A stretch of DNA of 64,000 nt. It comes from Enterobacter pseudoroggenkampii (GTDB lineage: Bacteria; Pseudomonadota; Gammaproteobacteria; Enterobacterales; Enterobacteriaceae). Position 1 is the first letter of the stretch; every line of letters starts with the position of its first letter. The stretch spans positions 171,117-235,116 of the forward strand of contig NZ_JAPMLV010000005.1 of NCBI RefSeq assembly GCF_026420145.1. Reading direction: 5' to 3'. The notes below the pieces were generated by a model. That model saw only the letters and a list, made by a program, of their open reading frames with translations, had not been told where the DNA came from and did no database searches. This document shows positions 50,112-55,220 of the stretch, piece by piece. The translations under genes were made by a program, and so were the position numbers.

Positions 50112-50320
50112 CTATATGCCATTGAGATTTAACAATCTTTCTTTGTGAGAAAGACTCATTTCAAAAGCGAACTCCTCATGTTCGGCTTGGAAAGTACCGA
50201 ACGCCATAAGCGCGGATACTGCGGGGTCTAAGGACTTCTTTTTGTTGGGCTTAATATTGGCATTAGCGTCAGATTCCATAACCACGTTACCAATCGCCCA
50301 AGCAAGAACAGGAGAAAATC
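50112..50320 (-). pseudogene. Terminase large-subunit C-terminal fragment
   Basis: About 60 residues in a different frame from the portal fragment, with PVLAWAIGNVVMESDANANI and KSLDPAVSALMAFGTF, typical of the nuclease-domain end of a phage TerL. The ATPase and most nuclease parts are missing. The left limit is the stop codon; the right limit is estimated, because the deletion junction with the portal fragment lies near 50300-50325. Confidence 0.75.
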
Positions 50321-50584
50321 TACCGGATGATTGCTCAGCCATTCCCGCGCCTCTCGCCCGTTATCGTTACGCACACGGTAGAGATAGCAGGGCATTGTTG
50401 CCACCGCTTCACTGATAACTGACACGGCATTCATCACCGCCGGCAGAGATTCCGCTGTACCCGCAGACACATACTCGCCTGAACCGGTATTTGGAATCCC
50501 TGCCATCGCCAGAAACTCATCAATGGTCATGCTGCGCTGCTCGAAGGGCTCAGACTTACGGCCAAACGGCCAGATATTCCACAT
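50228..50584 (-). pseudogene. Portal protein 5' fragment (HK97-type)
   Basis: It begins MWNIWPFGRKSEPFEQRS and is portal-like for about 92 residues (SLPAVMNAVSVISEAVATMPCYLYRV), then runs through about 25 unrelated residues to a stop. A normal portal has about 400 residues. The frame loss coincides with the start of TerL-like sequence in another frame, so a deletion removed the portal 3' part, the intervening genes and the TerL 5' part. It starts one base after the upstream ORF stop, the original coupling. Confidence 0.8.
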
Positions 50585-50585
50585 A

Positions 50586-51353
50586 TCAAAGCCCCGCTAA
50601 TTCAGCCCAGCGGGGACGGTTATCGCCAGCGCGGCGCAGTTCAGGATGTTGGGAGAAAAGCGAACGGTGCGCGATTTCCACACCAGACTCAGGATAAGCA
50701 GGCATAGACGTAACTGTGATTTCCCGCAGTTCAGCGGCGGTCACAGTGCGCAGGTATGGAGACCGGCCGATATCCCACGCTTCTTTCAGCGCACGGAAAC
50801 CAAAACTCATGCCGGAAATATCCCCACGTTCTACCAGCTCCAGCACATCATTCCCAAGCTGGGTATTCGGTGGAGTAAGTTCGAAGCGCAGCCCGGTTCC
50901 ACGTTTGACCGTCGCACCGCCCACAGATACCAGTTTCTGGTATTCGTTGGTTTTGGTGGTCTTCACCGTGGCAATAGAGCGCATAACGCTCTCATCCAGC
51001 AACTGGCGCATGATCTCTTTGTCCAGTTCAGGAATAACGGTATAGCCGCCCTCAGCAGGAACCAGTGTGGAGAGTGAGCGCATGTCCCCCGTCATAATGT
51101 AGTGGCGCAGTTCGTCATTGCTCACCGGCTCACCTTCAATGGAAGTACCAGGCAGATTTCGCTGAACGTCGGCAACGGCTTCAAGGCGGGTGATTTCAAC
51201 TTCAAGCGAATCTGCCTGGGCGCGGAGTTCGTCGAACTTTTTTCCCTCTTCTTCGTTCAGGCTGCGCTTTTCGGTATCGGCTTTGTCCAGCATGGAACGC
51301 ATCTGAGTTTTAAGTGCAGCTTTCTGCTGGCGTAATTCGAGTAATTTCTTCAT
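50586..51353 (-). CDS. In-frame fusion of capsid N-terminus to prohead-protease C-terminus
   Basis: A 255-residue ORF. Residues 1 to about 150 look like an HK97-fold major capsid protein: a coiled-coil scaffold-like delta domain MKKLLELRQQKAALKTQMRS and the capsid start LVPAEGGYTVIPELD. From about 153 (GLRFELTPPNTQLGNDVLEL) it is a HK97 prohead protease C-terminal half, with RGDISGMSFGF and REITVTSMPAYPES. The expected order is separate capsid, protease and portal genes, so a deletion joined two genes without breaking the frame. The protease catalytic histidine region is absent. Whether a product is made is unknown. Confidence 0.8.
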   Translation of the reverse strand: MKKLLELRQQKAALKTQMRSMLDKADTEKRSLNEEEGKKFDELRAQADSLEVEITRLEAVADVQRNLPGTSIEGEPVSNDELRHYIMTGDMRSLSTLVPAEGGYTVIPELDKEIMRQLLDESVMRSIATVKTTKTNEYQKLVSVGGATVKRGTGLRFELTPPNTQLGNDVLELVERGDISGMSFGFRALKEAWDIGRSPYLRTVTAAELREITVTSMPAYPESGVEIAHRSLFSQHPELRRAGDNRPRWAELAGL

Positions 51354-51498
51354 GGAGTGGTTTCCGTAACAATTAACGTTGAGACGTGAAACCAGCTCAG
51401 AAAAGAGGATGGCCGTTTAACCTTTTTCGGACTCTCTCCGGCTGTCTCGCACAGCTTGGTTAAACGGCCAGTGGCGGCTCACGTCTGAGTGCCACTCC
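51354..51498 (-). promoter_or_regulatory. Highly structured 5' leader of the capsid gene
   Basis: Three nested inverted repeats end exactly at the ATG. The outer pair is GGAGTGG/CCACTCC (51354-51360 with 51492-51498), the middle AGACGTGA/TCACGTCT (51382-51389 with 51479-51486), and the inner 13-bp perfect TGGCCGTTTAACC/GGTTAAACGGCCA (51410-51422 with 51458-51470). Inside the inner stem, the RNA can form two further hairpins, GCUGU/ACAGC and CGGA/UCCG, each with a five-base loop. No normal ribosome site precedes the ATG. Seen in sequence; function unknown. Confidence 0.7.
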
Positions 51499-51520
51499 TA
51501 AAGATATACATGCAAAATAT

Positions 51521-51547
51521 AAAAAAAGCCCCGTAGAATACGGGGGC
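51521..51547 (-). terminator. Terminator after the DUF4365 cassette
   Basis: On the minus strand GCCCCCG, a seven-base loop, CGGGGC and seven Ts. It lies 38 bases after the 373-aa gene, so the cassette and the capsid unit are transcribed separately. Confidence 0.88.
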
Positions 51548-53302: not shown

Positions 53303-53578
53303 CTACAGGACTGAAATCTCCCTCCTCATCCACTGGTAGGTACTGGTAATAAATCTCTGTAACTTTCTAAGTGCTCCATTAGGAGTCAAGTTGCTCAGTG
53401 TTTGCGACGATCCGTTCTCCGGAAAGGGTATGAACGATAAAACCGTGTGGTTCATCCCAGAAAAAGCCTCCTCCAACAAAGCACGTCGATAGTCTTTTAT
53501 CGACATAGTTTCGATACTTTGCGTACCGAACTTCTGATGGTGCTCCTTCCACTCAGTTTCAGTTATAGGCATATCCAT
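53303..53578 (-). CDS. Small unknown ORF beside the satellite origin
   Basis: A 91-residue ORF, MDMPITETEWKEHHQKFGTQ onward, hydrophilic with a basic C-terminal part (GALRKLQRFITSTYQWMRRE). It lies directly next to the iteron region and on the same strand as the primase remnant. No family is recognised. Its position fits a replication or copy-number accessory gene, or merely a leftover reading frame. Confidence 0.45.
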   Translation of the reverse strand: MDMPITETEWKEHHQKFGTQSIETMSIKDYRRALLEEAFSGMNHTVLSFIPFPENGSSQTLSNLTPNGALRKLQRFITSTYQWMRREISVL

Positions 53579-53614
53579 GGCTCCACGTATAAAATATAAA
53601 AATATGCATTTAAG

Positions 53615-53842
53615 TGTTCACCCCTTCACCATTGCGAATTTATACAATAAATTCATACTGTTAATCGATGTACACTTTACTTTTAAGTATTCACTAGTGT
53701 TCACCCTACACTTCACCCTTTAGACCAAAAGACAATCAAAAGGTGAACAGGTGAATACCTGGTGAATACTTTATAAATAAGTGTTCACCTCTTAACACAA
53801 TGTAATATATGAGATTTTTTACATGGTGAATGCTGGTAAACA
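53615..53842. other. P4-type replication origin with TGTTCACC iterons
   Basis: An AT-rich, gene-free 283-bp stretch (53579-53861). TGTTCACC is found exactly at 53615, 53698 and 53782, and inverted (GGTGAACA) at 53742. Near matches are ACTTCACC (53710), GGTGAATA (53750, 53761), GGTGAATG (53825) and GGTAAACA (53835). TGTTCACC is the type I iteron bound by phage P4 alpha at ori and crr. It adjoins an alpha C-terminal fragment, which carries the iteron-binding domain in P4. Confidence 0.72.
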
Positions 53843-54466: not shown

Positions 54467-54940
54467 CTATCGACTAAATTTCCCCTTGTCCCTGCCCTCG
54501 CCGCGGGCCGTTAAGTCGATTGACGGCGCGGCCGCTATTCCCTCAGCATCATAAAAAAATGCGGACGTTGTAAAGCTGTACACGGTGCCATAAACAGTAA
54601 ATGAGATATTGTTGCCTATACCGTCAACTTTCACACGGGCGGTGTTCGCTGTAAGCGTTGGGGCGATATGTTGTTTTTCGAGAGCCACCAGCGGATCGCC
54701 GTCAATCTTGCTCGCTAAAAAATAACGATACACTTCCCCCGTGGTCATGTTCGAGCCGTCATACTCAGTAATGTATAACCAGGTCCGGGACGTGAGCTGG
54801 CGAACTTCATAAAGCCGATCACTAACAGTTAAACGCTGTATATGCTGGAAATAACAGTACCCAGCGATCACGATGGCCATCGTAATTGTAGCCACCCAAT
54901 GCAACGCCTTAAACGCCCTAATAGTGGTGCTGCTTAACAT
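54467..54940 (-). CDS. Probable membrane immunity protein for the Ntox44-like toxin
   Basis: A 157-residue protein, MLSSTTIRAFKALHWVATIT onward, with one hydrophobic helix at about 14-32 and a periplasm-like soluble domain of beta character. Its start lies 22 bases inside the end of the toxin ORF, the coupling usual for toxin-immunity pairs. No named family is recognised. The immunity role is inferred from position and topology. If correct, the toxin is active in the periplasm. Confidence 0.6.
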   Translation of the reverse strand: MLSSTTIRAFKALHWVATITMAIVIAGYCYFQHIQRLTVSDRLYEVRQLTSRTWLYITEYDGSNMTTGEVYRYFLASKIDGDPLVALEKQHIAPTLTANTARVKVDGIGNNISFTVYGTVYSFTTSAFFYDAEGIAAAPSIDLTARGEGRDKGKFSR

Positions 54941-55220
54941 AGTCTATGCCTTGCTTTATCCAAAATTGGTCCATCGGATCATCACCAAACGGCGGGGCCC
55001 CCGTGAAATTCCCCCACTCTGGTCTTGATGTGCCGGCTTTCCACTGCGCCGCGCCGGCGGCAATAAGCAAAATCTTTGCAGGTATGCACGCTGCATAACC
55101 CACTGCGCCGTAATGAAAATTCCCGAAGTCAGCGTAAGCCCGTTTTTGTTGTTTGTAATCCCACACCCCGCCGTTTCTTACTCGCTCATAAAACCACGTA
55201 TACGTAAGCGGGGTAGCCAT
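54918..55220 (-). CDS. Ntox44-like polymorphic toxin domain
   Basis: A 100-residue ORF, MATPLTYTWFYERVRNGGVW onward. The pattern WFYERVRNGGVWDYKQQ, FGNFHYGAVGYAA, then GDDPMDQFWIKQGIDYV resembles bacterial toxin 44 (Ntox44), usually the C-terminal domain of large secreted toxins. Here it stands alone without a delivery domain, just divergent from hcp and overlapping a likely immunity gene. It may be delivered by binding Hcp, or be an orphan fragment. Family call from memory of the pattern. Confidence 0.6.
   Translation of the reverse strand: MATPLTYTWFYERVRNGGVWDYKQQKRAYADFGNFHYGAVGYAACIPAKILLIAAGAAQWKAGTSRPEWGNFTGAPPFGDDPMDQFWIKQGIDYVKQHHY

Follow-up and report, generated by a model that had tools for sequence, protein, structure and literature searches.

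A conserved leader RNA before the capsid genes of satellites in Enterobacterales, with a predicted lock on the ribosome-binding site

Genomic context

The window is a 64,000-nucleotide stretch of Enterobacter pseudoroggenkampii contig NZ_JAPMLV010000005.1 (positions 171,117 to 235,116; coordinates below are those of the window), in which a leader region on the minus strand is followed by an open reading frame at 50586-51353 that starts with an ATG at 51353-51351. A first, sequence-only reading of the locus had taken this frame for a satellite capsid gene; Pfam matches (Phage_capsid and Peptidase_S78) and alignment with intact capsids identify a decayed gene of 255 aa, in which the N-terminal part of the capsid is fused in frame to the C-terminal part of the prohead protease. 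The N-terminal part of a portal gene follows at 50228-50584 on the same strand (Pfam Phage_portal, 26.6 bits, under the curated cut-off of 39.1), and a C-terminal fragment of the terminase large subunit was recognized by eye downstream of the capsid remnant. Upstream of the leader lie a D5-type primase fragment and the remnant of a phrog_1957-like gene (53303-53617, minus strand; PHROG phrog_1957 matches), a copy that is probably broken because its matches fall in two frames. An open reading frame at 54918-55220, also on the minus strand, matches the Pfam family Ntox44 (bacterial toxin 44).

Capsid-forming PICIs (cfPICIs) are laid out as an integrase, a regulator, a replication gene, and a capsid-protease-portal-connector-HNH-TerS-TerL series. 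By annotation, the intact relatives of the window element carry an integrase, a regulator, a replication gene, variable cargo, and then capsid-protease-portal-connector-HNH-TerS-TerL, an order that we take to be the cfPICI layout. Since the intact relatives have this layout and the window holds its remnants, with the capsid, protease, and portal genes all truncated, the element in the window is, on its gene content, a decayed cfPICI, and its leader is best regarded as a relic because the capsid gene behind it is truncated. Three of the relatives (L002, L003, and L005) possess by annotation their own HK97-type head genes, a terminase, and integration/replication genes and have no tail genes; the annotation of L002 and L003 was followed into flanking chromosomal genes at both ends, and that of L005 into the chromosome on one side. 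One gene of a further relative, L001, is annotated as a tail tape measure.

Structure of the leader

The leader, a 5' untranslated region of the head operon, occupies 51354-51496 on the minus strand and extends over approximately 143 nt, with the putative first transcribed base at one end and the nucleotide preceding the capsid ATG at the other, as judged from homologues, from a promoter-like block, and from a match to model R1 (51498-51351, minus strand; 138.8 bits, E 2e-35). This was the sole match of R1 in the window, the sequence of which is included in the model. Perfect inverted repeats of 13 nt (51410-51422 / 51458-51470), 8 nt (51382-51389 / 51479-51486), and 7 nt (51354-51360 / 51492-51498) had been described at this place by the sequence-only reading, together with two small hairpins, each with a loop of five bases, enclosed by the 13-bp stem; all three repeats are present, and both hairpins appear in the predicted fold. 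The minus strand folds to a minimum free energy of -68.0 kcal/mol, compared with -40.3 +/- 3.6 kcal/mol for 200 dinucleotide shuffles (z -7.69; 0 of 200 as low), and the plus strand has a z of -5.74.

The three repeats had been read as nested stems, an arrangement that did not hold up as the main fold: the best predicted structure consists of three successive hairpins, P1, P2, and P3, and with the named pairs scored this form has a lower energy than the nested one in all 52 aligned leaders. P1 (51471-51495) is a 5'-terminal hairpin, GUGGC-A-CUCA-GACG-UGAG-CC-GCCAC, and contains element A (GACGUGA, 51479-51485), the UGA of which can pair within P1, or the whole of which can pair with element B. 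P2 (51410-51470) is the 13-bp stem (51458-51470 / 51410-51422) with the two small hairpins in its loop, and is joined to P3 by a linker (51395-51409) that appears by eye largely pyrimidine in alignment A3. P3 (51358-51394) has the form UGGUUUC-A-CGU ... ACG-GAAACCA, its outer strands being TGGTTTC at 51394-51388 and GAAACCA at 51364-51358; its 5' strand includes element B (UCACGUC, 51383-51389), identified from the pairing statistics as the alternative partner of element A. The middle stem of the nested model corresponds to element A paired with element B, that is, to an alternative pairing between bases of P1 and P3. The earlier statement that no normal ribosome site precedes the ATG stands insofar as the Shine-Dalgarno-like sequence is weak, and has to be amended in that a GGA, the only such sequence near the ATG of the window, is present 10-12 nt before it, inside P3.

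Immediately upstream of the leader are a promoter -10-like element, TATCTT (51501-51506), which belongs to a conserved block and has a putative function only, and a hairpin with a T run (51520-51545) that matches the consensus of an intrinsic terminator. In 116 upstream regions, with positions counted from P1, T is found at -33 to -31 in 114 or 115 and TATNTT occupies -11 to -6, with T-11, A-10, and T-6 present in all 116; the position of this promoter-like block leads us to place the putative transcription start on the first base of P1 or adjacent to it. Visual inspection of several relatives shows a terminator-like hairpin whose T run overlaps the -35 region of the putative capsid promoter.

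The view that the leader belongs to no named RNA family was borne out by Rfam 15, the families of which gave no match at gathering scores within the leader; three weak matches (E 0.08-0.84) fall on the neighbouring terminator, outside it. A leader peptide was considered as well, as P1 can be read as GTG GCA CTC AGA CGT GAG CCG CCA, and was rejected in its long form: leader lengths differ by non-multiples of three, so there is no long conserved leader-peptide frame, a result that leaves room for a short peptide.

Conservation and covariation

Pairing statistics were calculated on 52 representative leaders in alignment A3, in which the row of L203 is misaligned in P2 and from which no row was dropped. 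The conserved pairing that the sequence-only reading had asked for in homologous capsid loci is present. P1 is near-invariant: pairing is kept in 99.8% of its cells, three of its nine pairs show changes in both bases, and two near-identical leaders (L025 and L187) differ at a single P1 pair, A-U in one and G-C in the other. P2 differs among leaders in both sequence and length while its pairing is kept, in 84.5% of cells, and 12 of its 13 pairs show changes in both bases. P3 is paired in 97.5% of cells and shows a few G-U changes; none of its 10 pairs was changed on both sides among the 52 leaders, a test with little power because the stem hardly varies. The case for P3 accordingly comes from its conservation, these G-U changes, its predicted energy, and its position, the end of P3 falling 3-6 nt before the ATG in all 121 distinct leaders scored. 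The covariation score was reached by 0 of 500 shuffles of the 52 leaders, a control that ignores relatedness.

The outer 7-bp stem, which had been presented as closing on the ATG and as a key feature, fared less well and is weakly supported. Only 80.9% of its cells are paired, four of its seven pairs show changes in both bases, and the stem ends in bases located upstream of the putative transcription start. The pairing of the first base of P1 with a base near the start is inconsistent: ATGG occurs with CCAT in three distinct leaders and with CCCT in three, and CCAT occurs with GTGG in five.

The pairing of elements A and B is possible in 98.1% of cells, with one of eight pairs changed on both sides. 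That change is coupled to P1: the bases at P1 position 10, at P1 position 15, and at the linked place in element B are A/U/A in 112 and C/G/C in 10 of 122 distinct leaders, and no mixed combination was found among them. The C/G/C form also occurs together with an unrelated P2 in L363, a leader recovered by one loose scan and by none of the others. On a tree of capsids of at least 300 aa, thinned to 46 with six leader-negative capsids added, the usual and variant leader alleles are interleaved, and either leaders have been exchanged or the change has recurred; because of this interleaving, exchange may underlie apparent repeats of the A-B change. Two loci with highly similar capsids, L017 and L310, bear the two different alleles, a pattern that suggests leader exchange between satellites.

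The comparison of leaders thus shows that the region is conserved and linked to the capsid start, that P1 and P2 have undergone compensatory changes, and that elements A and B have changed in a coupled way. Taken with the predicted folds, it supports a structured RNA that acts in cis on the capsid gene, has been conserved with covariation, and has its 3' hairpin tied to the start codon. In this respect the suggestion of a cis-acting RNA is upheld; its control of capsid translation is a prediction.

Predicted accessibility of the ribosome-binding site

In 30 chosen representatives, the Shine-Dalgarno region had a mean unpaired probability of 0.15, compared with 0.53 when the upstream sequence was shuffled, and in 25 of them at most one of 30 shuffles was as low. 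The best fold included P1 in 35 and P3 in 35 of 37 chosen representatives, one or the other being absent in three (L228, L017, and L308). Forcing the A-B pairing raised the unpaired probability of the Shine-Dalgarno region in all 37 (mean of 0.59, up from 0.16) and cost a median of 5.1 kcal/mol; around the start codon the mean unpaired probability was 0.56 in both states. When growing prefixes of seven chosen leaders were folded, P1 and A-B competed once element B had been made, and P1 with P3 mostly won after the 3' strand of P3 appeared. The A-B probability reached up to 0.36 in full-length L195, and P3 had a probability of only about 0.6 in the prefix folding of L203. As the energies favour P1 with P3, switching to A-B would need an additional factor. 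Two properties of RBS-sequestering leaders can be recognized here, namely a Shine-Dalgarno region that is paired in the default fold according to the energy prediction and a hairpin, P3, at a constant position relative to the start codon. As to a bistable switch, with two mutually exclusive conserved pairings, the A-B and P1 bases are coupled in 122 of 122 distinct leaders, yet only a single A-B pair position varies with pairing kept.

Distribution of the leader

The leader precedes intact HK97-type capsid genes across Enterobacterales. A blastn search with 261 bases around it matched 167 of 5,426 Escherichia coli genomes (156 over at least 80% of the query) and three of 50,697 phage records (two over at least 80%), and a search with 179 bases matched seven of 72,556 plasmids (five over at least 80%). 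Genome contigs held 82 relatives of the capsid, of which the 80 best were kept; the leader is present in 25 of these 80 (Enterobacter, Pluralibacter, Kosakonia, Pectobacterium, Erwinia, Winslowiella, Serratia, Hafnia, Proteus, Klebsiella, Phytobacter, Intestinirhabdus, Yersinia, and some Xenorhabdus) and absent in 55, so it is not general to this HK97-type capsid family. All 80 of the viral-contig relatives bear it, a figure that is biased because the 277 relatives there were ordered by similarity to a query that has the leader and the top 80 taken. One locus (L025:1441-4516) has tandem capsid genes, the first without and the second with this leader.

A degenerate P1 pattern gave 250 matches among the loci listed, some contigs being present more than once; 238 precede an ATGAARAAR capsid start, five precede a variant or degenerate capsid start, and seven are chance matches elsewhere. 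Scans with model R1 matched two of 394 genomes of the order, one weakly and by eye not at a leader, and none of 369 genomes of the class; these scans, which scored only eight candidates in each genome, are low in power. One of 394 genomes of the order was matched by a pattern search.

A phrog_1957-like gene, a member of a small conserved protein family, is often found upstream of the leader, from 92 nt away. It was considered as a necessary dedicated regulator and set aside, being present in only 142 of the 206 leader-bearing loci with at least 3 kb upstream (some contigs counted repeatedly).

Capsid loci without this leader

A second type of repeat was found in 37 of the 55 leader-negative loci, where at least 12 of 14 bases are able to pair with the capsid start, compared with 1.2% of shuffles that keep base composition only. 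Its 5' strand lies 51-62 nt before the ATG (for example in L048, L056, L082, and L084), its fullest form is TTTTTCATGGTGTT ... AACACCATGAAAAA, and the capsid AUG is itself in the stem. In 28 chosen loci of the 55, the AUG region had an unpaired probability of 0.18, compared with 0.60 in shuffles. Five loci of Gilliamella and Frischella have a shorter repeat in the same layout that reaches only 10 or 11 of 14, a score that shuffles often reach.

A third kind of leader is found in six Xenorhabdus loci (L029, L038, L042, L043, L071, and L077), where, by eye, CATGTAGG, CCTGCATG, and CCTACATGCAGAGG are mutually complementary CATG-containing segments, located within about 150 nt before the capsid ATG and capable of alternative pairings around an AGAGG ribosome site. 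Four of these loci were folded, and their predicted structures differ from one another. A sequence in the promoter spacer of the main leader, TTTTTCATG, was also evaluated as an anti-start sequence and was not retained: 76 of 85 distinct leaders have at least 10 of 14 pairs with the capsid start, compared with about 28% of simple shuffles, and none has 12 or more; the leaders are related, and the excess exists, but the anti-start idea is unproven. Frames with the motif YLSL[KT]G, presumably that of the type VI secretion protein Hcp, occur upstream of the capsid in 12 of 43 leader-negative loci with 3 kb upstream (for example L022:1556-2299 and L036:1504-2247) and in none of 98 leader-positive loci with 3 kb upstream.

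Discussion

We consider it somewhat more probable than its negation that the region is the 5' leader RNA of the cfPICI capsid-protease-portal operon, which would repress capsid translation by default and could refold through the A-B pairing. Going by the folding models, the leader probably hides the capsid ribosome-binding site until a signal refolds the RNA. Transcription would start at or next to the 5' base of P1, and in the default fold P1, P2, and P3 would form, with P3 covering the weak Shine-Dalgarno sequence; capsid translation is predicted to be low because P3 hides that sequence. Alternatively, element A of P1 could leave that hairpin and pair with element B on the 5' side of P3, which is predicted to open both P1 and P3 and to expose the Shine-Dalgarno region. 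An induction signal, a protein, or another RNA would favour this A-B state.

The coupled change of elements A and B could also be read statically, since a loop-loop contact between P1 and P3 would account for part of the A-B signal without a switch. Autogenous control, in which the capsid, another product of the head operon, or a host RNA-binding protein binds P1 and P3 as a repressor and A-B is part of one fixed fold with such a contact, would explain why P1 and the 5' strand of P3 are nearly invariant beyond the needs of pairing, and is in keeping with a leader that accompanies the capsid gene in satellites whose annotated replication genes differ. Related Xenorhabdus capsids without the leader argue against it, as does a phrog_1957-like neighbour in no more than 142 of 206 loci, and we regard this explanation as unlikely, if worth keeping in mind.

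RNAs of the put kind suppress termination without protein factors, and by analogy the leader might fold on RNA polymerase as a nascent-RNA antiterminator and let it pass terminators. The HK022 put RNAs, as presented in the available text of PMC9378689, are about 70 nt long with two stem-loops and act on RNA polymerase, and putL lies just downstream of PL; the leader would likewise sit at the very start of its operon and begins with conserved hairpins, but at about 143 nt with three main stems it does not have the put form. The fixed place of P3 before the ATG would have no reason under a put-like reading, and a search of HK022 and HK97 with model R1, which would miss unrelated sequences of like function, yielded nothing with an E value up to 10. 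We hold antitermination to be improbable.

That the 5'-terminal hairpin and strong stems are simply a stability or insulation element protecting the operon mRNA fits with P1 as the presumed 5' end of the transcript and leaves the invariant loops, the A-B coupling, and the pairing of the Shine-Dalgarno sequence unexplained; we give it little credence. Least credible of all is a DNA-level element (operator, packaging site, or replication origin), for although the palindromes adjoin an AT-rich region between the replication and head genes, the halves of P1 are unequally spaced (A versus CC), the sequence of P2 changes freely while its pairing persists, and the leader is common to satellites in which the annotated replication gene is of three different kinds (DNA primase, RepA helicase, and DUF927). 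A packaging signal had been one proposal of the sequence-only reading and found no support; expression control is favoured instead by the promoter-like block, by the constant spacing to the ATG, and by the way P3 overlaps the Shine-Dalgarno sequence. LR881103, the one satellite record encountered in linear form, opens 22 nt upstream of the gene for the terminase small subunit and not at the leader.

Extending the proposed translational lock to the loci with other leaders, we advance only tentatively, as a possibility we rather doubt, that cfPICI capsid genes are generally silenced at translation by leader RNAs. The leader described here would be a three-way switch, one set of seven bases pairing either in P1 or with the strand that forms the RBS hairpin, and at least two unrelated solutions would exist in Xenorhabdus satellites and perhaps Gilliamella, one being a repeat with the AUG in its stem and the other three CATG segments competing at the ribosome-binding site. 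Satellites that build their own heads should not do so before the helper supplies tails, and if the general reading is true, capsid translation would be the checkpoint that ties the shell made by the satellite to helper tails becoming available. A conserved leader with a predicted lock on the ribosome-binding site would offer a direct handle on the timing of satellite head production, and would be a new RNA family for annotating satellites. A narrow search of the open-access literature, with subscription papers mostly outside it, returned among the papers listed no report of this capsid leader and no description of RNA-level timing of satellite head production.

Several known systems resemble the leader in part. 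Like it, the put RNAs of HK022 are structured RNAs near the 5' end of a mobile-element operon, but the available text of PMC9378689 describes no link between them and a ribosome site. The window element shares with cfPICIs the gene layout of its intact relatives, the window copy itself being decayed. Riboswitch-like and protein-binding mRNA leaders have mutually exclusive pairings, and in one of the two states the Shine-Dalgarno sequence is hidden; exclusive pairings are likewise predicted here, in a leader that matches no Rfam family at gathering score. In phage T4, hairpins sequester the ribosome-binding site of late genes such as e and soc, silencing read-through transcripts and being missing from the late transcripts. 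The predicted role of P3 is similar in that a hairpin would hide the ribosome site of a phage late gene, but here P1, P2, and P3 would all be contained in the transcript born at the promoter, and an alternative pairing would be added to them.
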